From: Bacteroides mediterraneensis
GTDB taxonomy: Bacteria > Bacteroidota > Bacteroidia > Bacteroidales > Bacteroidaceae
NCBI RefSeq assembly: GCF_900128455.1
Contig: NZ_LT635783.1
Span: forward strand, 3,214,546 to 3,278,545
Reading direction: 5' to 3'
Length of the DNA: 64,000 nucleotides
Under the pieces are notes generated by a model. The model saw only the letters and a program-made list of their open reading frames with translations, made no database searches and was not told the DNA's origin. This document shows, in pieces, positions 44,923 to 56,487 of this stretch; within the stretch, counting starts at the first letter, position 1, and each line of letters begins with the position of its first letter. A program made the position numbers and the translations under genes.

Positions 44923-44948
44923 AAAAGCCGGATATGCTCCGGCCTTTT
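44923..44948 (-). terminator. Terminator of the DUF308 gene
   Basis: On the minus strand GGCCGGA pairs with TCCGGC and is followed by TTTTC; it begins right after the DUF308 stop codon. Confidence 0.7.
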
Positions 44949-44949
44949 A

Positions 44950-45519
44950 CTAATCCTTTATTTCTTCAATAGGCACCACATCTTCTATCTTGCTCTTTGT
45001 CTTGCGGAAACGCAGCAACCGGAAAAGATCCATCAAAGCATATATAATGGACGATACTCCCAGCACGATAAAAGGGATTTCTGCTGTTTCAAACGGATTA
45101 AACAACACCGTAATGCCTGCGGCCAGGACCAGCACCGGCACCACATATACACCAAACGGCACCGGCATGAACGAACGGGCTGCAATCAGATTGGCCAGCT
45201 GACTGATTCCTCCCAGAACCAGCAACACGCCAAGTACATACATCAACACGCCCACAAAAAAAGAGGGCATGATAATGAGCCATATTCCAAAAAGAGTGCT
45301 CCCCAAGGCCACAATCGGAAATACCGGACGAGGAGCCTCTGCCTTTCTCCGATTCAGCATGGCCAAATAAGTGAACAATCCCACTAAACCGGGAATCAGA
45401 AACAACACCCCAATGGTAATTACCAGGTAATTCACCGCCACATCAGGCCATGTCACGAGCAGGATTCCGAGAATCAATGCACAAAGTGATCCTACCAATG
45501 CATAATTCAAAGATTTCAT
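44950..45519 (-). CDS. HdeD/DUF308-family membrane protein
   Basis: 189 residues with six hydrophobic helices in three repeated pairs (GILLVTWPDVAVNYLVI, GVLMYVLGVLLVLGGI, GVSSIIYALMDLFRLL), the acid-resistance HdeD/DUF308 layout. Inner-membrane, probably linked to stress, function unproven. Charged C-terminal tail is cytoplasmic. Confidence 0.85.
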   Translation of the reverse strand: MKSLNYALVGSLCALILGILLVTWPDVAVNYLVITIGVLFLIPGLVGLFTYLAMLNRRKAEAPRPVFPIVALGSTLFGIWLIIMPSFFVGVLMYVLGVLLVLGGISQLANLIAARSFMPVPFGVYVVPVLVLAAGITVLFNPFETAEIPFIVLGVSSIIYALMDLFRLLRFRKTKSKIEDVVPIEEIKD

Positions 45520-45605: not shown

Positions 45606-47690
45606 TTATCCCGCATAACTATGCATACCTCCTAACACATAGTTCACTCCAAAATATGTCATCAATACCGTGGAAAAGGCTAAAATCAAATATAAGTGAA
45701 AGACACTTGGATGACGAAATAAGGAAAAACTTTTCCCATGAAAAGCTGCTCCGTAAATCAGAAAAGTGATTAAAGCCCACACCTCTTTCGGGTCCCATGT
45801 CCAATAACTCCCCCAGGAAACATTAGCCCAGACCGCTCCAATAAAAATACCTATACCTAGCAACAATACTGCAGGATAGAGTAACAATCGGCAACATAAC
45901 GTGAGACGTTGCATCTGAGCCACCTGTTTCCGTACCGCAAGTGCCAAGATACTGCACAGGCAAATAAAGGCAAACAATGCATATGAAATCATGATAATGG
46001 ACACATGGATACTCAACCAAGGAGAAAGCAACACTGGCATCAATGGGGTAATCTGCGGATTCTTTTCTCCCAACCAGGCAACCAACAACACCCATCCGGA
46101 CAGCAACAACCCTGACGGCAAAAGCAACACCAAACGACGTTGCCAGATACAAGCACCCAGCAGCAGACAACCGGCTAGAAAAAGCATCGTTTCCGGCCCA
46201 TTTCCAAGCGGGATACGACCTCCAATATACCATCGAAGCAGATAAGCCCCCCAATGTACAAGACACGATGTCCAAAGCCCAACCTTCAATACAACATAAA
46301 CCCAATTTCGTCTATAGTTGCCTTGAGGAACTACCACATAAAAACGTAACCACCAGAAAAAGCCTACAATTCCCAGAAAAAGGTTGCACATAAACAAAAT
46401 TTTGGAAAAAGGAATCGCATTGTAGCACAATTCCGCCAGAACCCGAAGAGATGACAATGGCTCTACACTTCCATCAGTCGGCAAAGGTCGGATAAGCGTA
46501 CCCTTTTTCAACATCAAGACCATACCCACTTTTTCATCCAGTTCCCGTATCTCTTTCTCCAATTTCTCCGCCTGATGCTGTTCCAGCCATCCTTTAAGCC
46601 CACTCTGTCTTTTTCTCTGCCATTCATTCCACACTTTTTCCAAACGATAACTCTTTCCGTCGAATAAATCCACCAAGGCTACATGGTCAGACTTCAACTT
46701 TAACATCTGACGAAGATTTTCACTCTTCACGTAAAACATTGGTTCATGCTGCCATTCTTCAGGATATAGTAACCAGCTTGCTACGACCTGTTCCGGAGTC
46801 AAGCCTTGGTAGGAGGAACTCCCACATAACTTCAACGTAAAATCACGGGCCAAAGTATTAAACGGTACCACCCGATCCTGATAAATGACTTGACGTGTTT
46901 TCAACTTTTCTGCATCCTGCCGTGCCAATACACGCACTGGCTGAGCCTGCAGAACTGGTAATGATATTCCCCATAGCGCACAAATCAAGCCTACCTTTCT
47001 CCAAGCTGGATGATGCAACAAGTTCCAAAAGGTTTCCCTCCGACTCACCAGCAGACTGACTGCAGAAAAAAGCAAACACACATATCCTGCATAGGTCACA
47101 ACAATGCCCCAAGGATCATAATTGACACTCAACCAACTACCAGACCAATCTGTATCGAAAGACGACTGATAAAAACGATAACCGTCTACCGAAAGAATAT
47201 GATTCATTGAAATGACTTCCTTACGTTCTTCTCCCTCCACTCGGCAGGTCACATAACTTAAATAATCCATCGGAGCTTCCGTACCTGGATAATATGCCAC
47301 TCTGAAACTGTCCAATCGAATATGGAAAGGCATTTCTCGTAATACCTGATCGGAAGTTCCGACAAACTGACTGATTTCCTTCCCTTGTTCAAGATGTACA
47401 TACCCTTTCTCTCCCGTCAAAAAGGTAAGCAAGGCCCCTCCCAATATGACCAGGAGGGAGCCGTGCCACCACACAACGGAGAAACGCATTCCCAGCCGGT
47501 ACTTTCCCAGCACCCGCAACAGGACACAAGCTAACGTTCCCCACAAGCTACAAAACCAAAAAGAACGATAAATATGAGTTTCCACAAAAGAAGTTCCATA
47601 TGCTTGCTCCAGCAAAGTGGCTGCAACCAACACTATAATCAGGGTTACATAAAGAAAGATTCCAACTATTTTCCATCCACGTACTTCCAT
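45606..47690 (-). CDS. Fused ResB-CcsA cytochrome c synthase
   Basis: 694 residues; covalently attaches haem to CxxCH motifs of exported proteins (system II). The N-terminal half has ResB-like helices (FLYVTLIIVLVAATLLEQAYG, LVILGGALLTFLTG) around a periplasmic domain with HLEQGKEISQF; the C-terminal half is CcsA with the WWD haem-handling motif (about 621-640; SWGSYWTWDPKEVWALI) and conserved His residues. Start at ATG 47690, since the ORF's first codon is TTG. Last gene of the imelysin/di-haem operon; the substrates are probably the CxxCH lipoproteins encoded upstream. Confidence 0.88.
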   Translation of the reverse strand: MEVRGWKIVGIFLYVTLIIVLVAATLLEQAYGTSFVETHIYRSFWFCSLWGTLACVLLRVLGKYRLGMRFSVVWWHGSLLVILGGALLTFLTGEKGYVHLEQGKEISQFVGTSDQVLREMPFHIRLDSFRVAYYPGTEAPMDYLSYVTCRVEGEERKEVISMNHILSVDGYRFYQSSFDTDWSGSWLSVNYDPWGIVVTYAGYVCLLFSAVSLLVSRRETFWNLLHHPAWRKVGLICALWGISLPVLQAQPVRVLARQDAEKLKTRQVIYQDRVVPFNTLARDFTLKLCGSSSYQGLTPEQVVASWLLYPEEWQHEPMFYVKSENLRQMLKLKSDHVALVDLFDGKSYRLEKVWNEWQRKRQSGLKGWLEQHQAEKLEKEIRELDEKVGMVLMLKKGTLIRPLPTDGSVEPLSSLRVLAELCYNAIPFSKILFMCNLFLGIVGFFWWLRFYVVVPQGNYRRNWVYVVLKVGLWTSCLVHWGAYLLRWYIGGRIPLGNGPETMLFLAGCLLLGACIWQRRLVLLLPSGLLLSGWVLLVAWLGEKNPQITPLMPVLLSPWLSIHVSIIMISYALFAFICLCSILALAVRKQVAQMQRLTLCCRLLLYPAVLLLGIGIFIGAVWANVSWGSYWTWDPKEVWALITFLIYGAAFHGKSFSLFRHPSVFHLYLILAFSTVLMTYFGVNYVLGGMHSYAG

Positions 47691-47695
47691 AGATT

Positions 47696-48853
47696 TCAAA
47701 AATCAGGATAAAGCGTGTTTTTCTGTGCCCTTGTACCCATACATTCCATTTCAATAAGCCAACCTGGACGGCAAACAGGAGCCAGCAGAATCACTTTCGG
47801 AATTTCTGGGAAACGCTGGTCGAACATCTCACGTACCGTCACATAATCTGCCCCATCACGTAGATATACCAACATTTGTCCAATATCTTCAAACGACATC
47901 TCTGCCTCTCCAAGCAAGGCCTCCACATTTTGCCACATCCGTTCAGTCTGCCGGCGAATATCACCCGGATAAACAATGTCTCCATTCCGGTTAATACTGG
48001 CTGTGCCAGAGATGAAAACCTGACGACGATCTCCATAATCCACATACGTTCCACGTTCAAAGCTCACTCCATACTCATAAGTCGGATTCAAGTAATCGCG
48101 TGCATATAAATAGTGTATTTGTTCCCGACAAAGCCCCAATACGGCATACGTATCCATCTGCACCAAAACTCCAGCATCAGCATGACGTCCGCTAATACCT
48201 GTACTTGCAATATAATGCGTCTGTGGAGTAAGCCCTTGAGTGACAAATACCTCATTACGGGCCTTAACTACCCCAGCATAATTCACATCGATATTTTGCA
48301 CGAAAAACCAGGTCCGAATACAGTTCTCAGCCAAATGTCCTCCCCATGCAATCAACTGGAGAATATAATCATTCAGCAACAAACGGGTCTGGTACTCCGA
48401 ATTGGCCGCACGATTGCAAGCCGTTCCGCCCCATAAATGCCGATAACTACCATGCGAAACTTCAAACAAGCCGTTTTCAAGAGAACTACTCTGCATCTCC
48501 GACTGCAAATATACCCACATGGCAATCTTACTGCCATCCAAAGGCGGCTGCTCTACTATGGAGCAGGCACAAGTTGTGCTCTCGGGTACTTGTGCTGCCA
48601 GCCAGTCAGCCTGATTGGCCGCATCACTCAAGAAATAACGCTTGAACACGGCAACCGCCCCTTTCAATTCGTTTTCCAATAAAGCATAATATGTATCGAG
48701 TACCGCATCCAATTGTTCTTTATATGTCAAGGAAGGCCGAATGACATGAATCATGACTTGATATTCATTCACCCCTTCCTCTTGTGTAAAACATGAGATC
48801 TCGACTAAAGTCTTTTCTTGTAACTTGTGAATTCGTTGTTGTTTGTGGCTCAT
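47696..48853 (-). CDS. Tandem RidA/YjgF-like protein (chorismatase-like fold)
   Basis: 385 residues, no signal peptide. The C-terminal half has a clear RidA-type core (VFISGTASINRNGDIVYPGDI, QTERMWQNVEALLGEAEMSF, VLLAPVCRPGWLIEMEC); the middle part (ENCIRTWFFVQNID) looks like a second, divergent copy. Two-domain RidA-like proteins include FkbO/Hyg5 chorismatases, but also uncharacterised proteins. What a cytoplasmic enzyme does between periplasmic haem and iron genes is not clear. Start at ATG 48853; the open frame's earlier start is ATT. Confidence 0.7.
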   Translation of the reverse strand: MSHKQQRIHKLQEKTLVEISCFTQEEGVNEYQVMIHVIRPSLTYKEQLDAVLDTYYALLENELKGAVAVFKRYFLSDAANQADWLAAQVPESTTCACSIVEQPPLDGSKIAMWVYLQSEMQSSSLENGLFEVSHGSYRHLWGGTACNRAANSEYQTRLLLNDYILQLIAWGGHLAENCIRTWFFVQNIDVNYAGVVKARNEVFVTQGLTPQTHYIASTGISGRHADAGVLVQMDTYAVLGLCREQIHYLYARDYLNPTYEYGVSFERGTYVDYGDRRQVFISGTASINRNGDIVYPGDIRRQTERMWQNVEALLGEAEMSFEDIGQMLVYLRDGADYVTVREMFDQRFPEIPKVILLAPVCRPGWLIEMECMGTRAQKNTLYPDF

Positions 48854-48872
48854 AATCAATCTAATTTATCGA

Positions 48873-49601
48873 TCAAGGCTTTGCGCCTTCAGTTATCCAG
48901 TCGTCTATCAAATTTAATAATACAGGTTCTGCTGAAAGAATATCCTGATGGTCATGGTGTACATGTCCATTCTCGTTCAACACCAAGTGCAGAAAACTAT
49001 GCTCAGCGTCTTCCGGCTCTACCCTCTTCCAGTCTGGTTGTACAGAAGAAGGCACGTCTACCAGTTGCTCGTAACTTTTTCCTTCGGTCAGAAACAGACC
49101 GGCAGCCGCCGATGTACTTCCTCCGTGGCAGTTTACACACCGAGAATCGAACACATGCTCCTGAATGGCTTGAAACATGCCTACCGACTGCTCACCTACC
49201 TCCAGACGGATGGTATCTTCCGTCACTTCCGAACAGTCTACCTTAACAAAAGTAACAACCCGCTCCCGGATACGGTTAATGACACACAATTCGACCTGTG
49301 TCACCTCATCCGTCACTCCCGACATCACGACCTGAATCGTTCCATCCTCTTCTGCCTGCGAAGGCATCACATTGGCAGAAGTCAGAGCATATTCACTTTT
49401 TGCATCAAAACCAGCCACTACCACCGTATAGCCCGAGGGCCAACTCTCAATGCCGGATACCTTTCCGATAAACTTTACCGTACGTCCTCCTTCTGCTGTG
49501 ACAGAGACGGTATCATAAATTCGCCCTTCATCACAAGCAGTCAGCCATCCGGAAACAGCCACCCAAAGTATCCATAGAAACATATTTTTTCTCATACCCA
49601 T
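48873..49601 (-). CDS. Lipoprotein with one CxxCH c-type haem motif
   Basis: 242 residues. Lipobox WLTAC (Cys23). The N-terminal part is a beta-rich, Ig-like domain (about 30-135). The C-terminal part carries CVNCH (Cys155, Cys158, His159) and several His residues (HVHHDH near 220) that could complete haem or metal binding. It resembles the single-haem cytochrome lipoproteins found with imelysin and DUF1111 genes. Starts 9 bp after the porin gene stop. Confidence 0.75.
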   Translation of the reverse strand: MGMRKNMFLWILWVAVSGWLTACDEGRIYDTVSVTAEGGRTVKFIGKVSGIESWPSGYTVVVAGFDAKSEYALTSANVMPSQAEEDGTIQVVMSGVTDEVTQVELCVINRIRERVVTFVKVDCSEVTEDTIRLEVGEQSVGMFQAIQEHVFDSRCVNCHGGSTSAAAGLFLTEGKSYEQLVDVPSSVQPDWKRVEPEDAEHSFLHLVLNENGHVHHDHQDILSAEPVLLNLIDDWITEGAKP

Positions 49602-49610
49602 TTCCTTTCC

Positions 49611-50825
49611 TTAGAATGTGTACTGAAGCAGTACCGTAGCGCTATGGGTAGCAATCCCCAAATCGTCATTATCACGGTCCAACTGTGTATCGTGCCCCCA
49701 GCGTCCCACAAACTGATACATAGCCTGCAATTTCAGGTTACATCCCCTGAAGAAATAGTTCACTCCTACTGCCGGCATATTCATAAATCCGTTTGTATCC
49801 ATCCCGTTACGATTGAAAAAATCATAGCGAGCCGTAGCCTGCAAACGGGATGTCACAAAATAACCTCCCTGCACATATCCTCCCAAGTAATGATAAGCCT
49901 CATCAATTTTCTGTCGCTTGGTAAAACCGACACGCATATAATACAACTCCGCACCCAAATACAGTTTTCTTTTCAACATGGCAAACTCTAATCCGGCACG
50001 ATAATCGTTCGTACTTTCATTCTCGCTTTCTACGTTCAACGAAGTAGATACCCCGAACATCAGCTTGTCTTCTTTCAGGCGATTGGGATTACCTTGCGTA
50101 GAAGGCATCACTCCTTTCGGCATATAAGTAAACCGTCCAGCATACAGCAAGGAAGGAATGTGCCAATCATCACTGAATGTCTTCCCTGCCGTATTGACCG
50201 ATATACCCGTTCCATTAAAGAGTCCGACTTCATACCCAAATCTATCTGCTAACAAACCGTGGACTTCTACCCCCAAATCGAATCCCGTACCAATATTGGG
50301 AGTCACGGCATTCAACGAATAAGGCAAGATTACAGAGGAGGTCAACGAGAGCGGAAGAGAAGGCATCAATGTTTCTCCTAAAGTAGTCAGATAACCGTGT
50401 GAAAAAGGTGTCTTGAACTTTCCGACACGAATGGAAAACTGTTTTTTCAATTCTACATCAAACCATGCCTGCTGCAACAACGCTGCCCCTGTAGCTGCCG
50501 CATTAAGTGAAAGATTGAAAGAAACCTTTCCAAAAGCCTTTCCTGTAAATCCCAACACCGCATAAGGAATAGCAAATCCAGAATTAGCCACATTATCCTG
50601 ATTATACGCCTTATCCAGCCCTTCATCGTCATACCAGTTGAAGTTTGCACTGGTCTGTACCAGCAGATAAGGCTTGAACACAAAGTCGCCCTTTTTAGAA
50701 GCGATGGTAAATCCCTCTCTCCCGGCCAGCGACACAACACCGTTTTCCGTATCCTCTTCATGCTGTGCCAAAACTGTCAGCGGCATCATGGCAGCCAGAC
50801 ACATCGCAATCATTATTCTTTTCAT
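49611..50825 (-). CDS. Outer-membrane porin, OprP/OprO-like
   Basis: 404 residues; signal peptide (MMPLTVLAQ), then a beta-barrel with repeated aromatic-flanked strands (FTGKAFGKVSFNLSLNAAAT, FSIRVGKFKTPFSHGYLTT) and terminal Phe (LLQYTF). KFKTPF and the following loop resemble phosphate-selective porin O/P proteins. It sits between two haem lipoproteins, suggesting passage of iron or an anion for the system. Confidence 0.78.
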   Translation of the reverse strand: MKRIMIAMCLAAMMPLTVLAQHEEDTENGVVSLAGREGFTIASKKGDFVFKPYLLVQTSANFNWYDDEGLDKAYNQDNVANSGFAIPYAVLGFTGKAFGKVSFNLSLNAAATGAALLQQAWFDVELKKQFSIRVGKFKTPFSHGYLTTLGETLMPSLPLSLTSSVILPYSLNAVTPNIGTGFDLGVEVHGLLADRFGYEVGLFNGTGISVNTAGKTFSDDWHIPSLLYAGRFTYMPKGVMPSTQGNPNRLKEDKLMFGVSTSLNVESENESTNDYRAGLEFAMLKRKLYLGAELYYMRVGFTKRQKIDEAYHYLGGYVQGGYFVTSRLQATARYDFFNRNGMDTNGFMNMPAVGVNYFFRGCNLKLQAMYQFVGRWGHDTQLDRDNDDLGIATHSATVLLQYTF

Positions 50826-50850
50826 AAATCGTTCGTTTCAGTTCTAAAAA

Positions 50851-52278
50851 TTAAAGTGAATTCAAAAACGCAATCAGCGCATCACGGTCTTCCTTACTCA
50901 TGCGTTTGAACAGATTTTTCGAGGCTTCTGCCTCTCCTCCGTGCCACATGATGGCCTCCACCAGGTTACGGGCACGCCCGTCGTGCAGGAAATACGTATG
51001 ACCGTTCACCACTTCCTGCAGGCCGATGCCCCACAAAGGAGTCGTACGCCATTCATTTCCGCGAGCCAGTCCACTCACATAATTGTCGTTCAACCCTACC
51101 CCCATGATCTCCGACCCCATGTCGTGCAGCAAAAAATCAGAATATGGATGAATGGTTTGATTTCCTAACCACGGCAATTCCGTTCCATTCAGTAAAGTAG
51201 CTCCTCTTGTCTTTGTGTGCAAAGTAGTAACATGACAAAGATGGCACTTTGCCTCGTAAAATTTCTGCTCACCTTGCTGTACCTGTGCATCATTCACATT
51301 CCGCCGAGCCGGCACTCCCAAACAATGCATATAAAGGTCCACATCTTCCATATCCTCCGTCGACACATCCAACTGATCGTACGAGAGCCCCATCATGCTT
51401 CCCTGATCCATCTGTATCTGTCCCTCGCAGATTTCTTCCGGATAACGGCTGTTGGTCACTCCCATGTCACTGGAAAATCCCAGCTCCACCGTCAGGTCGG
51501 CATGCTGTGCCTTGTTGCCTGAAAGTCCCAAACGGGTCACGCCACGCTCACTGATATAATTACACCGCCCACTAATACCGTATTCCGGATAATTGCTTTT
51601 GGCTGCCAGTGCTTCAATCTCTGTTTGGTCAAGTGCCATCATCTGCCCCATCCCAACATGACGCAACGGAATGCGAACAGAACAGAACAAATCTTCCGGA
51701 CGAATACTGTCGGCATACCATTCTGTTATGGTATAAGTCGGCTTACAAAGCTCATACGTTTCTCCATCAGGAAATTCAAACGTCTGATAATCATATTTCA
51801 CCGAAAGTTTTCCTTCCGGTTTGACTCCGTAGATAGCCTGATCGTGCAACACACGCCCATAGTTCTGGAAAAAAGCTCCATTCTTTCGAGTAATATACAC
51901 CAGCATGGAAGAAAAACCGTAATTTCCCGAGCCACCTTCGCTCCATAATGTCGGTTTGGTACGCCCCGCATTCCGGTGGCAGCTTCCACATGAATATCCG
52001 GCATATACCGGTCCCAGTCCACCGCCCTGATTGCTGCTGGTACGTACATCGTCATACAATCCATCACCGTCATTAAAACGGGTACTATAGATTCCCGAAA
52101 CCCATGGAGCTTCAAAATCGTATGCTTTCGACGAGGCTAGAAAATTGGTAGCAGTACCGGCGGACAATGCATATCCATCCGGTACTTCCACATATTGCTG
52201 GTCAATGCCTTCCTTGTGACAGCCCCACAAACAGCCAGGCAAAAAAACATATAATACAAACTTCAAAATCCTCCTCAT
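50851..52278 (-). CDS. Di-haem DUF1111 (thiol-oxidoreductase-like) lipoprotein
   Basis: 475 residues; lipobox LWGC (Cys20). Two c-type haem motifs: CGSCH (97-101) and CHLCH (345-349). The segments TPLWGIGL and FLHDGRARNLVEAIMWHGGEA near the C-terminus are the DUF1111 signature. The family has a di-haem peroxidase-like architecture and is often paired with imelysin in iron-regulated operons. The redox partner and reaction are unknown. ATG 52302 is an alternative start, only 3 bp past the imelysin stop. Confidence 0.85.
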   Translation of the reverse strand: MRRILKFVLYVFLPGCLWGCHKEGIDQQYVEVPDGYALSAGTATNFLASSKAYDFEAPWVSGIYSTRFNDGDGLYDDVRTSSNQGGGLGPVYAGYSCGSCHRNAGRTKPTLWSEGGSGNYGFSSMLVYITRKNGAFFQNYGRVLHDQAIYGVKPEGKLSVKYDYQTFEFPDGETYELCKPTYTITEWYADSIRPEDLFCSVRIPLRHVGMGQMMALDQTEIEALAAKSNYPEYGISGRCNYISERGVTRLGLSGNKAQHADLTVELGFSSDMGVTNSRYPEEICEGQIQMDQGSMMGLSYDQLDVSTEDMEDVDLYMHCLGVPARRNVNDAQVQQGEQKFYEAKCHLCHVTTLHTKTRGATLLNGTELPWLGNQTIHPYSDFLLHDMGSEIMGVGLNDNYVSGLARGNEWRTTPLWGIGLQEVVNGHTYFLHDGRARNLVEAIMWHGGEAEASKNLFKRMSKEDRDALIAFLNSL

Positions 52279-52305
52279 TCTTCTTTCATTTAATATAGCC
52301 ATGTT

Positions 52306-53487
52306 TCAATCCACCGAACGAGCCTGTCCGTCTTTGAACAACAGAAATTCCAGTGTATGGAAACCACGTACATTCTGTGCGGCAGAAATACTTTCACTAT
52401 CTTCCGAATAGTCACCGCTCCATTCCATCTGACTGTAATCTCCCGAATTCAAAATATTTACGATGGCTGCCTGGTCAAGCGGCCAGCTGTCCATGTTCGG
52501 ATCCAGTCCCTGGTCGGCTACAGGACCAAACAAAAACGCCTCACTCATTTCCCAAGGTTCACGGGCTGTAATCCAAGCATCACACGCATCCTTAAATGCC
52601 TGATTGGTCGGATTGGCAGCCAACGCATTCACTTTCTCATACAAAGTACCAACCTTCGACTTCAAATCAGCATAAGTAGGCAACACCACTACATCTACAT
52701 AATTCTCTACCACCGGACTCAATACATTTTCAGATAATGCATCACAAGCTGGCTTCAACTGATTTTTCAGCAATACACTCAACTCACTGCAAGCTTCCTG
52801 TGCAGCCAGACTCTGTCCACTATTGATATGATTACGGAAAGGCTGAGGTATGGCCAGAATTTTATCGTAAGCATTCTTGATAGCTGTCAAGGTATTGTCG
52901 GCCAATTCCTGTTGGCCGTTGTTTACCAACGCTGCATACAACGATTTTCCAGCCACCTGACTCTTATCGATTGTAGCCCCACTGATCAATGACTCGCTAC
53001 GTACTCCACAAATTGCATTGCAAATGGATACGATGTTATTGGAATAATCCTCACGTGAATGCCAGCTATACCACGACTCTACGGCATAAAGCGCTTCGGT
53101 CACGTTCCCTGCCTGATATTTGGAATAAGGATCACCGATTTTTGTCTCCCCCACTTCATTGGCGATATCCACACAACCATCTATCACCTGTTGCACGCAC
53201 GAACCTGCACTGTTGAACGGAGCACTGTGGTTTTTAAAAGTTGTGGCATAACTTTCACCTCCTTTATAGGACACCGCCCAATAATCATACAAATCGGAAG
53301 CATCCTTACGGAGCAGAGTCACTACGGCTTTCATGTAATTATTCCAACTAGCAGCATTTTCCGATGTATAATCTATATCGGCCGCATCAATCGGTTCTGG
53401 TTGAGGATCATCATTGTTACTGCACGCGGTTGAAGCAAAAGCCAAGCCTACCGCAAAGGCTGCGGCATAAAAGAAATTCTTTTTCAT
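52306..53487 (-). CDS. Imelysin-family (peptidase M75-like, iron-associated) lipoprotein
   Basis: 393 residues; lipobox STAC (Cys22). The imelysin GxHxxE signature is near the C-terminus (Gly375-F-His377-T-L-Glu380), preceded by the acidic segment EPWEMSEAFLFGPVADQG. Imelysins are periplasmic, two-bundle helical proteins tied to iron uptake (EfeO/IrpA relatives). It is the second gene of the operon. Start at ATG 53487 gives the standard signal peptide. Confidence 0.88.
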   Translation of the reverse strand: MKKNFFYAAAFAVGLAFASTACSNNDDPQPEPIDAADIDYTSENAASWNNYMKAVVTLLRKDASDLYDYWAVSYKGGESYATTFKNHSAPFNSAGSCVQQVIDGCVDIANEVGETKIGDPYSKYQAGNVTEALYAVESWYSWHSREDYSNNIVSICNAICGVRSESLISGATIDKSQVAGKSLYAALVNNGQQELADNTLTAIKNAYDKILAIPQPFRNHINSGQSLAAQEACSELSVLLKNQLKPACDALSENVLSPVVENYVDVVVLPTYADLKSKVGTLYEKVNALAANPTNQAFKDACDAWITAREPWEMSEAFLFGPVADQGLDPNMDSWPLDQAAIVNILNSGDYSQMEWSGDYSEDSESISAAQNVRGFHTLEFLLFKDGQARSVD

Positions 53488-53517
53488 ATTCATAATCATT
53501 TTTAGGATTTAACAGAT

Positions 53518-54882
53518 TCATTTTTTGAAGAACCAGCCTACGTATGCCAGTCCGATGGAAAACTCATTTTCACTGGTATAAGGCCCTGTACCAAACATCT
53601 TTCCTGTACCAATCTGACGAGTGGTATAATCCGCCTTTACCACCAGATTCGGCAATGCAAACCAGTTCAGTCCAGCCACCCACATGCTCACCTTATTACG
53701 CAAGTCCATAGTTTGTCCCACTTCTCCCTTCTCCTGCGGATTATAGTATTCATAGCGGAGAAATGGATAAATTACAGGAACCTTACAATTGTGATTGAAA
53801 ATGGAGCGCAGATTAACACCTACTTCTCCGGCATAACTGGCCGCATTTTTTGCCACTGGCACCACCCGACTGTAGGAAGCATTGTTCGAAAGGCGGACAT
53901 TCTTACTACTAATAAACTTAGAATTCGTCAAATTTCCATACAGCACATTGGCGCGCAGCGTCACGTAATCATTCTTATACTGCAAGTCACCTGAATAAAT
54001 TCGCAGCGGAGCCTTCCGGCCTTCATAAAAGTCTGGTTTGTCGGAATTGCCGGCAGTATTGGCACAATAATAAAAAGAACCTCCCACACGCAGTCCCGGC
54101 ACTCCCCGATAGTCCAATCGAACCACATAACCGGGAGAGTTGAAGTTATCTTCTTCAAAAATTCCTTGCTTGCCACTACCTACCCATGTATTCCGGTCGA
54201 AACCATTCGCATTCAAACCCGCTACGACCAGCACCTGATAATCAAACGTGGTATATCCCTTACCAAACGTACCGAAAAACTCAATCCCGGTCTCATGCCA
54301 CGTAGAAGGAAGAATCGTCGTTTCTCCTTCCGGGCGCACTGTTCCAAAAAAATTAACCGGCTCATGATGCGCATTGGTCAGCCCCACAGGCACTATGATA
54401 TGCCCGGCCCGCACGTTGAAAGCCGGATGAATCAGACGGGTAATATGAAACTGTTCCAAGGCCACTTCTCCTCCTTTTTCCATTTCGGTCTCATACTCGC
54501 CGTTCTCTGAGTTTTCAAGTTCCATAGCCGTACCTACTCCTCCGGATTCAAATTCTATCTCCGCTCCCAAAATCCATTTAGGAGTAAACTTATAATCAAA
54601 AGCCAAAACAAAACGTGGAATGGAAATCGTATTCCGATGGTCACGGGTATTCCCGTTCGGATTTCCATAATAGCGATTAATACCATAATCCTTGAAACTG
54701 GCCACAGCCTCTCCATACCCTCCTACACGAAAGCGGGTATATCCGTCTTTGTCCACACGTTGCTTCTGTATCGTTGTTTTCACATATTCTTCAGCTACCT
54801 GCACCGAATCAACTTCACTAGCTGAAGCAGCTCCCGCAATACAACAAAGAGCAGTAAAAAATAAACTAACTTTTTTTTTCAT
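53518..54882 (-). CDS. Outer-membrane porin (phosphate-selective porin-like)
   Basis: 454 residues; signal peptide ending at ASASE, a short helical plug-like stretch (20-45), then barrel strands (RFRVGGYGEAVASF, IPRFVLAFDYKFTPKWILGAEIEFE) to a terminal FFKK. First gene of the seven-gene operon. It is not the same as the second porin (49611-50825). The substrate is unknown; iron or a small anion is likely from the company. Confidence 0.75.
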   Translation of the reverse strand: MKKKVSLFFTALCCIAGAASASEVDSVQVAEEYVKTTIQKQRVDKDGYTRFRVGGYGEAVASFKDYGINRYYGNPNGNTRDHRNTISIPRFVLAFDYKFTPKWILGAEIEFESGGVGTAMELENSENGEYETEMEKGGEVALEQFHITRLIHPAFNVRAGHIIVPVGLTNAHHEPVNFFGTVRPEGETTILPSTWHETGIEFFGTFGKGYTTFDYQVLVVAGLNANGFDRNTWVGSGKQGIFEEDNFNSPGYVVRLDYRGVPGLRVGGSFYYCANTAGNSDKPDFYEGRKAPLRIYSGDLQYKNDYVTLRANVLYGNLTNSKFISSKNVRLSNNASYSRVVPVAKNAASYAGEVGVNLRSIFNHNCKVPVIYPFLRYEYYNPQEKGEVGQTMDLRNKVSMWVAGLNWFALPNLVVKADYTTRQIGTGKMFGTGPYTSENEFSIGLAYVGWFFKK

Positions 54883-54904
54883 TTCTCTGCGATTTTGAAC
54901 ATCG

Positions 54905-54935
54905 CAAAGGTAAACTACCCAAAAAAGTTTATCAA
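54905..54935 (-). promoter_or_regulatory. Promoter of the porin-imelysin-haem operon
   Basis: Minus strand: TTG (54935-54933), 20 bp, TACCTTTG (54912-54905), 22 bp upstream of ATG 54882. I see no obvious Fur-type operator. Confidence 0.65.
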
Positions 54936-55184
54936 TACCTAAAAATCACGAAAACAACAAACAAAACCTACTTATTTCTCAGTATATATCCAACTTAATT
55001 TTTACATAAATCAGGACACCCTTATATTGCTGGTTTATAGAAACATAGAATAAATCGGTGGATAATTATCCTTTTAAACTTCTCCTTATAATCCTCCATT
55101 ATATACCTAAAAGAGACTAATCCCAATATACCAGTCCAGCCCCAATTCATTTATTAAATTGAAACATTCACTAGAACATAGAAA

Positions 55185-55412: not shown

Positions 55413-55997
55413 TCAATTATCTATGGTGTATTCTTCAATGCCACGAATTGCCTCTTTGGCCTTACGACGCACTTGAACACAGTGTAAAATTCCTCCGACA
55501 GCACCCAATACAAAGCCGACACTACCCCCGTAGCATATCATTTCACCTCCCACTTTCGGATAGCTTTCGAACATAAACCATACAATCCAACACAAAGCAA
55601 AGGGAATACCGAAATAAAGCCATCTCAAACCAAGCTGGTTCATTCGTACCAATGCTTTGCTGATATCCAACAAGTTCCCCGTTGAAATGCAATCAATACT
55701 GACACCCTTATGGCTATATCGCTGGTAAATTCCGGCTATAATCAAAAACACAGAAGTAAAAACACAAAAGATCCACGAATATCCCATCAACAAGAAAAAT
55801 GTATTGCAATACACCAGTGCGAAACCTATCAAAAAATAGATAAACCTTTTCTTCCGATTAATATAGGCAACCTTGTCCTGCGTAGAGTTTTTAAGTAACT
55901 TTTCACTAACGATGATTTCTTTGGCCAGCTTGTCCCTTAGCAACTGAATCTGTTGCTTCATCTCATCTAATTCAAATTCATCTACATAATTTTCCAT
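55413..55997 (-). CDS. Four-helix membrane protein next to the sigma factor
   Basis: 194 residues. A cytoplasmic N-terminal coiled coil (ELDEMKQQIQLLRDKLAKEI, about 10-40), then two pairs of membrane helices (FIYFLIGFALVYCNTFFLL, IFCVFTSVFLIIAGIY; LYFGIPFALCWIVWFMF, GSVGFVLGAVGGILHCV) and a charged tail. It starts 10 bp after the sigma factor stop, the usual place of an anti-sigma or membrane partner; no known anti-sigma domain is recognisable. Function unknown. Confidence 0.7.
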   Translation of the reverse strand: MENYVDEFELDEMKQQIQLLRDKLAKEIIVSEKLLKNSTQDKVAYINRKKRFIYFLIGFALVYCNTFFLLMGYSWIFCVFTSVFLIIAGIYQRYSHKGVSIDCISTGNLLDISKALVRMNQLGLRWLYFGIPFALCWIVWFMFESYPKVGGEMICYGGSVGFVLGAVGGILHCVQVRRKAKEAIRGIEEYTIDN

Positions 55998-56007
55998 GAT
56001 AGCACAG

Positions 56008-56487
56008 TTAATGGTTCGACATTTTTTTCAACTCTTCTTTAATACGATACAAACGCACAGATACATTTTTGGTAGAAATTCCGACAATAGCACCGATTTC
56101 TTCATAACTCATATTTTCCAGCCACAACAAAACAATGGCACGATCAAAAGGATTCAGCCGATGAATGCGGTCATAGAGCAGACGAATCTGCTTGGAACTT
56201 TCATCTTTATCTTCAAACAGATTGATATCCATGGTCAAAGGAACAACAGCACGCCTTTTCTTTTTCCTTTCGTATGAAATGCAGGTATTGAAACTCACTT
56301 TCCATATCCATGTATTGACGTTAGTAAGATTCTTGAAAGAATCATATCCTTTCCAAAGATTAATAAGCACTTCCTGAAAAAGATCACTTACTTCATCAGC
56401 ATCCTTCGAGAACATAAAACACACCGTATAAATGGTACTCTTATGCTCTTTGACCATTTGCGCAAATGCAGTATCCAATGTTTTCAT
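56008..56487 (-). CDS. ECF-type RNA polymerase sigma factor
   Basis: 159 residues. Region 2 contains DLFQEVLINLWKGYDSF and NVNTWIWKVSFNTCISYERK; region 4 contains LNPFDRAIVLLWLENMSYEEIGAIVGISTKNVSVRLYRIKEEL. Directs polymerase to a small set of promoters in answer to an envelope signal. The gene pair with the downstream membrane protein is flanked by two direct copies of an intergenic repeat. Confidence 0.92.
   Translation of the reverse strand: MKTLDTAFAQMVKEHKSTIYTVCFMFSKDADEVSDLFQEVLINLWKGYDSFKNLTNVNTWIWKVSFNTCISYERKKKRRAVVPLTMDINLFEDKDESSKQIRLLYDRIHRLNPFDRAIVLLWLENMSYEEIGAIVGISTKNVSVRLYRIKEELKKMSNH

Follow-up and report, generated by a model that had tools for sequence, protein, structure and literature searches.

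The closest described counterpart of the operon analyzed here appears to be BT2473-82 of Bacteroides thetaiotaomicron, a likeness based on published annotation: the gene types of BT2473-BT2482 match, and their arrangement is consistent (CcsA, hypothetical, porin, thiol oxidoreductase, M75, hypothetical), with a fimbrillin and an HTH regulator additionally listed in the locus (PMC10434189). In this model gut commensal, expression of the locus is reported to rise strongly, by 63-324-fold under iron depletion and by 14-33-fold in colitis (PMC10434189). The excerpted text of that paper assigns no function to BT2473-82 and marks the locus as B. thetaiotaomicron-only among its three species; among the openly licensed papers examined, it is the only one whose available text reports the operon as a locus. 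Our analysis adds to that text an order-wide distribution, a chorismatase fold, a probable bis-His cytochrome, and a candidate operator with a candidate regulator.

PIBO of Bacteroides ovatus (3n8u/3oyv; PMC3143127) is a permuted imelysin of the same kind as the one encoded here; CcsBA, chorismatase, and mono-haem partners are not described in the excerpted text of the PIBO paper. The EfeUOB and imelysin-DUF1111 iron loci likewise position an M75 protein beside a haem oxidoreductase, but the operon described here differs from them in having its own cytochrome c synthase, two porins, and a chorismatase-fold enzyme. EfeUOB also has the FTR1 permease EfeU, whereas FTR1/EfeU (PF03239) was not found in the genome carrying our operon (99.98% complete; the control search was positive in 4 of 14 genomes). 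A FeoB reading frame of 830 amino acids is present in this genome.

The window, i.e., the whole stretch of DNA that was analyzed, comprises 64,000 nucleotides of Bacteroides mediterraneensis (contig NZ_LT635783.1). An earlier note on it had described seven reading frames of the same direction, separated by short gaps and served by a single promoter. This observation is real: all seven frames lie in the described order on the minus strand (45606-54882), the successive gaps measure 18, 3, 25, 9, 13, and -4 bp (-4 to 25 bp), and one conserved promoter was found ahead of the porin 1 gene. In the direction of transcription, the features are as follows:

55103..55113, minus strand: second TTTTAGGTAT copy, 168 bp upstream and in the same direction (motif scan)
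54905..54941, minus strand: promoter with candidate operator, TAGGTATTG-N20-TACCTTTG (motif analysis)
53518..54882, minus strand: porin 1, an outer-membrane beta-barrel protein of 454 amino acids whose gene opens the operon (barely passes PF07396, 21.1 bits vs. a cut-off of 20.9; family beside imelysin in 53/56 loci)
52306..53499, minus strand: imelysin (M75) lipoprotein of the circularly permuted PIBO type (profile halves swapped; 3n8u match)
50851..52302, minus strand: DHOR/DUF1111 di-haem oxidoreductase lipoprotein with CxxCH at 105 and 353 (PF06537, 222 bits; cut-off 22)
49611..50825, minus strand: porin 2 (Porin_O_P; Pfam, 212 bits)
48873..49601, minus strand: mono-haem c-type cytochrome lipoprotein, 242 amino acids (CxxCH at 155)
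47696..48859, minus strand: chorismatase-fold protein, 387 amino acids, called tandem RidA-like in the earlier note (fold and E370)
45606..47699, minus strand: cytochrome c synthase CcsBA, a ResB-CcsA fusion of 697 amino acids that includes a WWD region (Pfam; 7s9y)
44950..45519, minus strand: membrane protein of the DUF308 (HdeD-like) type, which may be an eighth gene (reading frame and Pfam; neighbor genes of the closest loci)
44923..44947, minus strand: terminator-like hairpin of 10 pairs (hairpin scan)

The seven genes look like a single transcription unit. Their order stands as first read; the unit may, however, comprise eight genes, since the DUF308 gene starts 86 bp downstream of CcsBA and the 10-pair hairpin lies directly past it. 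Among the RidA-anchored loci, for which the best 80 of 315 relatives were considered, the five closest (L063-L067) have DUF308 next to CcsBA. Terminator-like hairpins show no excess in the region overall (11 vs. 9.7).

The imelysin, DUF1111, and CxxCH proteins had been called lipoproteins, and each carries a lipobox-like cysteine (C26, C28, and C23, respectively) present in at least 97% of the aligned rows. The imelysin matches PF09375 with 159 bits (cut-off 23.5), contains the GxHxxE motif near its C-terminus (GFHTLE at residue 379 of 397), and aligns over residues 30-396 with the PIBO structure 3n8u (E 3.4e-123); it is of the permuted PIBO type, for which the structure is solved. Both CxxCH motifs claimed for the DUF1111 protein are present, each conserved in at least 97% of the 62 rows aligned. 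The haem-attachment enzyme likewise proved to be a System II haem ligase encoded within the operon: ResB (70 bits) and Cytochrom_C_asm (116 bits) domains are joined in one protein, which aligns with the solved CcsBA 7s9y (E 6.7e-76), including the WWD region, and scores below the cut-off of the 252-position NCBIfam model TIGR03144 (136.6 vs. 187.6 bits).

We compared 56 imelysin loci from 55 other Bacteroidales genomes, a set that leaves out the window's locus and the second imelysin of the same genome. The porin 1 family and DHOR were found in 53 of these loci and CcsBA in 41, and the gene order is conserved far beyond chance expectation; this survey had been set beforehand as a refuting test, and its outcome favors a unit with order-wide conservation and shows which parts belong together. 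Bacteroidales usually encode CcsBA next to imelysin-DHOR, and in the window's genome all three c-type cytochrome loci examined come with a CcsA of their own, so that the package cannot be called unusual, as it had been. Chorismatase occurs in 7 of 46 canonical loci, and porin 2, the small cytochrome, and chorismatase occur together in 6 of 46, figures that allow for two weak rows (the "RidA" of L326, a plain 126-codon RidA with 42 bits, and the "Por2" of L334, with 26 bits).

The tandem RidA-like label holds as far as a Ribonuc_L-PSP match is concerned (Pfam, 55 bits) but is incomplete, because the protein has a double-YjgF chorismatase fold over its full length, an assignment that is new here. 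It shares this fold with the FkbO/Hyg5 chorismatases (4bps, 5ag3, 5a3k; Z 31.3-32.2 across 297-305 residues, with the next-best row at Z 14.7), and its E370, invariant in 22/22, aligns with Glu-334 of Hyg5, the reported catalytic residue (PMC7170507). In contrast to those enzymes, with which it is only 19-20% identical, it is encoded in an iron-linked operon; it misses the cut-off of NCBIfam TIGR04444 (41.4 vs. 325 bits) and is not filed as FkbO/Hyg5 type. We rejected chorismatase as an obligatory part of the operon, because it stands alone in 6 of 59 fully covered loci and the stand-alone genes lack the promoter motif (0/25).

The 242-amino-acid lipoprotein with its single CxxCH matched no Pfam family. 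In its structure model (pLDDT 86), a beta domain is N-terminal and the haem domain C-terminal; no PDB match was obtained for this model at E <=0.001, which has no bearing on novelty. The haem is probably bis-His coordinated by H159 and H218, a feature that is also new here.

The promoter reads TTG-N20-TACCTTTG, with the second box 30 bp ahead of porin 1. Of 56 orthologous upstream regions, one of them the window's own, 40 contain a site of this type, compared with a mean of 1.6 and a maximum of 6 in 200 single-base shuffles. Within the window, the short TTTTAGGTAT motif alone does not exceed chance (4 matches vs. 2.6 expected). A sigma-70 scan revealed no excess (21 vs. 18.7 expected). The motif TAGGTATTG-N20-TAnnTTTG is common to feoAB, hmuY, TonB-receptor, ahpC, gpmA, tetR, and pfl genes, and this shared promoter motif is new here; the word "motif" is absent from the main text of PMC10434189. 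It was matched 64 times in 24 genomes of the genus and 115 times in 393 Bacteroidales, compared with 1 and 8 matches, respectively, for the reversed pattern. Among 129 distinct sites with retrieved surroundings, the labeled targets include 15 TonB receptors, 11 porin-imelysin operons, 8 each of FeoAB, TetR, and PflB, 6 calycin, 5 AhpC, 5 LutA, 4 HmuY, at least 4 hemerythrin, and 2 GpmA genes. Ten of the target labels were checked by Pfam; two of the 11 "Por1-imelysin" labels (L262, L318; 75-95 bits) and some TonB labels (L297, L299, L303; 26-92 bits) are weak.

Since the promoter sequence is shared with other iron genes, it points to a likely controller. The candidate is a hemerythrin plus LuxR-type (CdhR-like) regulator, a proposal that is new here. 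The closest known regulator system is CdhR (PG1237) with the hemerythrin PG1236 of Porphyromonas gingivalis, a putative counterpart of the pair in the window's genome; CdhR is reported as an hmu activator, and the excerpted texts give no binding motif for it (PMC10101095, PMC10434189). A hemerythrin-GerE pair or fusion is present in 10 of 56 imelysin loci, and hemerythrin plus LuxR-type regulators also stand beside the motif elsewhere, the neighbor counts being lower bounds among the hemerythrin matches listed. Of the 57 genomes that encode a protein closely related to the hemerythrin, 29 have the motif, vs. 55 of the 336 others. In part of the genomes, the regulator lies near targets with the motif at their promoters. 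Control by other regulators is conceivable: for Riemerella, an imelysin gene is tabulated among the Fur-dependent ones (PMC5609570), and for hmu, the names of PgFur and SigH have been put forward as well (PMC10101095). The leader, inspected by eye, showed no AT-rich palindrome resembling the Fur box of Riemerella as given in the excerpted text of PMC5609570. An ECF sigma factor and a 194-amino-acid gene upstream (55413-56487) were considered as regulators and rejected; an ECF match occurs in only 2 of the best 80 of 315 RidA-anchored loci, and lies downstream there. Lewis and Gui call the mechanism of iron sensing and regulation in Bacteroidetes unclear (PMC10434189); with a defined promoter sequence and a regulator candidate at hand, both this question and the role of the locus become testable in B. 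thetaiotaomicron.

Collectively, these data support the assignment of the operon to iron physiology. The iron link made in the earlier note is sustained by the iron-induced counterpart in B. thetaiotaomicron (PMC10434189) and by the motif common to feoAB and hmuY; its interpretation as a whole is partly supported. We favor the reading that the operon is an iron-acquisition module induced by iron starvation, with a probability of about 0.5, because of the operon structure with its promoter, the iron induction of BT2473-82, the candidate motif regulon and regulator, the conservation, the haem sites of the proposed relay, the finding of a FeoB frame but no FTR1 match, and the retention of Fe2+/Fe3+ by the M75-only EfeM (PMC9174327). 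Low iron, or an altered O2/NO/redox state, would be sensed by the hemerythrin partner, and motif and gene neighborhood suggest that the LuxR/GerE-type regulator would act at TAGGTATTG beside the -33 box to turn the operon on. Small iron complexes or aromatic acids may enter through porins 1 and 2, and the imelysin lipoprotein, judged by its family, would bind iron. DHOR and the mono-haem lipoprotein may form a short haem relay, most likely reducing imelysin-bound Fe(III), and the resulting Fe(II) would be taken up by FeoAB; this predicted ferric reduction is plausible. CcsBA is predicted to attach the three haems. The chorismatase-fold enzyme could, more speculatively, convert chorismate into a compound of the hydroxybenzoate type, which might act as a weak chelator or shuttle electrons. 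The operon would need its own CcsBA because the synthase genes of the nitrite-reductase operon are off when it is required: nrfAH-ccsA of B. thetaiotaomicron is down 30-36-fold in low iron (PMC10434189).

Several observations count against the iron-module reading. No target could be assigned to 55 of the 129 motif sites; only 11 of the 56 genomes with imelysin have the exact motif ahead of the imelysin operon (a relaxed form is found at 18 of 56 loci); the motif is absent in its exact form from the FeoAB gene of the window's genome and from the 25 stand-alone chorismatase-like genes. The motif is also present at the lutABC promoter, yet low iron lowers the expression of P. gingivalis lactate-utilization genes 2-fold (PMC10434189). 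The annotation of DHOR is that of a putative peroxidase, and no biochemical study of the operon was found in the openly licensed literature searched. The cost of three haem sites during iron starvation also speaks against an iron module.

That annotation of DHOR, the presence of the same motif at ahpC, and the rise of the locus in colitis (PMC10434189) would fit a periplasmic peroxide defense, in which a di-haem peroxidase receives electrons from the mono-haem cytochrome and removes H2O2, protecting cells in inflammation, while imelysin buffers iron against Fenton chemistry. We consider this unlikely: a CCP/MauG peroxidase with a dedicated ResB-CcsA is encoded separately in the genome, genes for iron and haem uptake make up a large share of the labeled motif targets, and the known inducer is iron depletion.

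A bolder form of the iron-acquisition reading, which we regard as quite unlikely, envisages a self-contained reductive iron scavenger. Hydroxybenzoate made by the chorismatase would leave through the porins as chelator or shuttle, the surface haem lipoproteins would maintain it in reduced form while stripping Fe(III) onto imelysin, and a hemerythrin-LuxR iron/oxygen switch binding TAGGTATTG would govern an order-wide iron-starvation regulon of Bacteroidales.

The motif common to hmuY and calycin-like genes, and the rise of B. thetaiotaomicron hmu under the same low-iron condition (PMC10434189), could indicate that haem from the host is captured or processed by the lipoproteins, which would complement HmuY, with DHOR and CcsBA binding haem as cargo or sensor. 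This is very unlikely, given that CxxCH is kept in 60/60 small-cytochrome rows, which indicates a covalent structural haem, and that no TonB-dependent receptor is found among the seven genes.

Very unlikely, too, is the ferroxidase scheme proposed for Efe systems, in which DHOR would oxidize Fe(II) and imelysin pass on Fe(III), even though a connection between imelysins and EfeB-like peroxidases was drawn by Xu et al. (2011; PMC3143127). It is at odds with the negative search for an FTR1/EfeU permease in the genome and with the ferrous importer FeoAB, which follows the motif in eight sampled genomes, though not in the window's genome.

The porins and cytochrome lipoproteins of the operon resemble porin-cytochrome conduits, and porin 2 gives a weak ExtI match (31.5 bits vs. 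a cut-off of 150), but a respiratory chain exporting electrons by way of outer-membrane cytochromes and porins is highly improbable, with neither a multihaem cytochrome nor a quinol dehydrogenase among the seven genes and with induction by iron starvation, when such a chain is expected to be off.

Imelysins are also mentioned as iron-related in the available texts on Prevotella bryantii (PMC7709123), Bizionia (PMC9478572), and Rhodobacter (PMC4344238).

The operon lies on the minus strand of the window and comprises seven genes, beginning with a porin gene and ending with a fused ResB-CcsA gene:

54882-45606, minus strand: porin 1, imelysin, DHOR (DUF1111), porin 2, CxxCH lipoprotein, RidA-like protein, fused ResB-CcsA (CcsBA)

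ORFs, Pfam matches and haem motifs bear out the set of seven genes, in one direction and with short gaps, that the earlier note had claimed; the intergenic gaps are, in order, 18, 3, 25, 9, 13 and -4 bp. A DUF308 gene follows ResB-CcsA at a distance of 86 bp and has a 10-pair terminator-like hairpin on its 3' side, so that the unit may number eight genes. Upstream of the operon (window:55413-56487, minus strand) are an ECF sigma factor gene and a 194-aa gene that matches no Pfam family, which are not conserved neighbors. The Bacteroidales assembly that holds the window totals 4.08 Mb over 18 contigs. Genome G022 encodes an imelysin 97% identical to the one here, and the names among the related loci include Phocaeicola, Bacteroides, Prevotella and others.

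The gene-order survey across Bacteroidales suggested in the earlier note spoke for conservation. Imelysin is present in 56 of 393 genomes, and in the imelysin-anchored set (56 loci from 55 genomes, the window's genome left out) porin 1 and DHOR are found in 53 loci and CcsBA in 41 (35 of the 43 with at least 7 kb of downstream DNA). Porin 2, the small cytochrome lipoprotein and the RidA-like protein occur together in 8 of the 10 loci with a permuted imelysin, the type seen in the window, versus 6 of the 46 canonical loci. By these counts, the core of the operon is porin-imelysin-DHOR-CcsBA, with porin 2, the small cytochrome and the RidA-like (chorismatase-fold) protein as an accessory set. 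Anchoring on the RidA-like protein (best 80 of 315 relatives; 59 loci with sufficient flanking DNA on both sides) is biased since it selects for that very gene, imelysin being the fairer anchor; here porin 1, imelysin, DHOR, porin 2 and the small cytochrome are all present in 49/59 loci, 44 of which also carry a same-strand CcsBA, while porin 2 and the small cytochrome are missing in 4/59 and the imelysin genes in 6/59. Two tandem DHOR genes stand behind imelysin in loci L331 and L332.

The apparent B. thetaiotaomicron counterpart, BT2473-82, which we equate with this operon by gene content and order rather than by sequence alignment, is induced 63-324-fold by iron depletion, and the same report puts its rise in a data set on colitis at 14-33-fold (Lewis and Gui, 2023; PMC10434189). 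That paper also lists the hemerythrin-CdhR pair BT0519-20 as up 16-20-fold, hmu, a TetR gene, gpmA and pflAB as likewise up, and the nrfAH-ccsA operon as down 30-36-fold (PMC10434189). Through this published induction the operon is already known as an expressed locus; it is real, conserved and iron-responsive. New are its order-wide anatomy, the predicted chorismatase-fold identity of one product, and a connection with a wider iron regulon through a candidate operator and regulator.

The porin 1 promoter, TTG-N20-TACCTTTG, is of the Bacteroidetes type. Of 56 orthologous upstream regions, 40 have such a site (shuffles: mean 1.6) and 16 do not; GTA stands immediately 5' of TTG in 39 of the 40, and 17 of them have an inverted TACCT 46-48 bases 5' of TTG, some 42 bp away from the GGTA half. 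In the window the copy is a direct one, 168 bp upstream. Three exact matches to TAGGTATTG-N18-22-TAnnTTTG are present in the window's genome, namely at the imelysin operon, pflBA and lutABC. The latter two, which connect the iron operon with genes of fermentation and lactate use, fall within one locus (L189, on contig C1 of the window's genome), together with a putative regulatory gene pair:

L189:5152 (C1:3081152), plus strand: motif before pflBA
L189:11626 (C1:3087590), minus strand: motif before lutABC
L189:11668-13004, minus strand: hemerythrin protein and LuxR/GerE regulator pair, just upstream of lutABC

Across 24 genomes of the genus we counted 64 matches versus 1 for the reversed control, the surplus being smaller (12 versus 2) in another 16 genomes from the order; with the spacer fixed at 20, the 393 Bacteroidales genomes gave 115 versus 8. 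The exact site is directly 5' of the imelysin operon in 11 of the 56 imelysin genomes. We fetched the surroundings of 129 distinct sites and labeled their targets by match to references taken from among the motif targets themselves (some sites count twice, a few labels are weak, and ten representatives were Pfam-checked). On this basis 74 sites precede a reference-matching gene and 55 are unlabeled; the targets are TonB receptors (15), porin-imelysin (11), FeoAB (8), TetR (8), PflB (8), calycin (6), LutA (5), AhpC (5), HmuY (4), hemerythrin (4) and GpmA (2). HmuY, TetR, GpmA, PflB and the imelysin operon all represent gene types whose induction by low iron is reported for B. thetaiotaomicron, which provides an independent check of the motif.

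The hemerythrin-LuxR pair is a candidate regulator and the motif, whose TAGGTA we presume to resemble the NarL-family heptamer, its candidate operator; Fur is a further possibility. The pair, sometimes as one fused protein, occurs in 10 of the 56 imelysin loci; six of these (L151, L338, L341, L342, L352, L360) have it divergent from porin 1, and the others inside or behind the operon. A single fused protein is encoded in L151, L169, L352, L356 and L360. For at least 12 of the 115 motif matches, a hemerythrin-regulator gene is no more than 1 kb away, against <0.1 expected by simple proportion. The motif is found in 29 of 57 genomes with a close hemerythrin relative (≥200 bits) versus 55 of 336 others (Fisher p = 7e-8, uncorrected for genome relatedness); many genomes thus have the one without the other. 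In the literature, the P. gingivalis hemerythrin-CdhR operon is PG1236-37, with a fused form in Prevotella intermedia (Lewis and Gui; PMC10434189); CdhR is reported to activate the hmu genes, for which PgFur and SigH are named as other regulators, and hmu, ahpCF, a TetR gene and cdhR are up together in a PG_0686 mutant (PMC10101095).

The imelysin is circularly permuted, as the halves of the M75 profile align to it in swapped order; its GxHxxE is near the C-terminus, and the PIBO structure 3n8u (PMC3143127) matches residues 30-396. DHOR has two CxxCH motifs, both conserved, and the 242-aa lipoprotein a single one, placed by the predicted structure in a helical C-terminal part behind an N-terminal beta domain. 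Its second histidine, H218, is present in 60/60 aligned rows, and after residue 145 no Met column is conserved in >60% of rows, a pattern suggestive of a low-potential haem with bis-His ligation.

The AlphaFold model of the protein that the earlier note had called tandem RidA-like (pLDDT 92.9, pTM 0.92) matches the FkbO/Hyg5 chorismatases over its full length (Z 31-32 over 297-305 residues; next best row, Z 14.7), and the best seven Foldseek rows are all chorismatases. E370, invariant in 22/22 sequences, aligns with the catalytic Glu-334 of Hyg5 (PMC7170507). Since the protein scores far below the NCBIfam cut-off for FkbO/Hyg5, we name it a predicted chorismatase-fold protein, not a proven chorismatase. 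Its gene is solitary in unrelated settings in L101, L108, L122, L132 and other RidA-anchored loci, and the iron motif precedes 0/25 stand-alone copies, which argues for a wider role. In L146 (4058-7736, minus strand), two such genes flank a hemerythrin-LuxR pair immediately after the imelysin operon.

The sequence itself shows what the operon is composed of, its haem motifs, the permuted imelysin, the predicted chorismatase fold, the conservation and the promoter motif shared with other genes. The imelysin would bind iron, by analogy with the M75-only EfeM, which retained Fe2+ and Fe3+ (PMC9174327); the haem pair would reduce Fe(III), and the iron would then pass to FeoAB (a FeoB frame is present, and FTR1 was not found in this genome). 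The chorismatase-fold protein would have a part in this too. Against this mechanism stand the motif not being universal, the FeoAB genes of this genome being without it, lutABC bearing it although lactate-utilization genes of P. gingivalis fall in low iron (PMC10434189), and the possibility that DHOR is a peroxidase.

The window's CcsBA can be aligned, WWD region included, to the two solved CcsBA chains. It shares 36-44% identity over about 700 residues with unsplit CcsBA proteins encoded in six imelysin operons from other genomes, versus only 30-37% over 154-206 residues with the remaining two CcsA proteins of the window's genome, which belong to further c-type cytochrome loci:

L143:8485-11638: CCP/MauG peroxidase, with its own ResB/CcsA
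L144:5826-11218: nitrite-reductase-like NrfHA pair (recognized via haem-motif count, CxxCK and gene order), with its own ResB/CcsA

All three cytochrome loci observed in this genome are thus equipped with haem ligase genes of their own. Elsewhere in the genome, and in a different setting (L145:351-10265, plus strand), lies a gene for a second imelysin-like protein, this one of canonical order; its cluster opens with a probable SusC/SusD pair and several lipoproteins.
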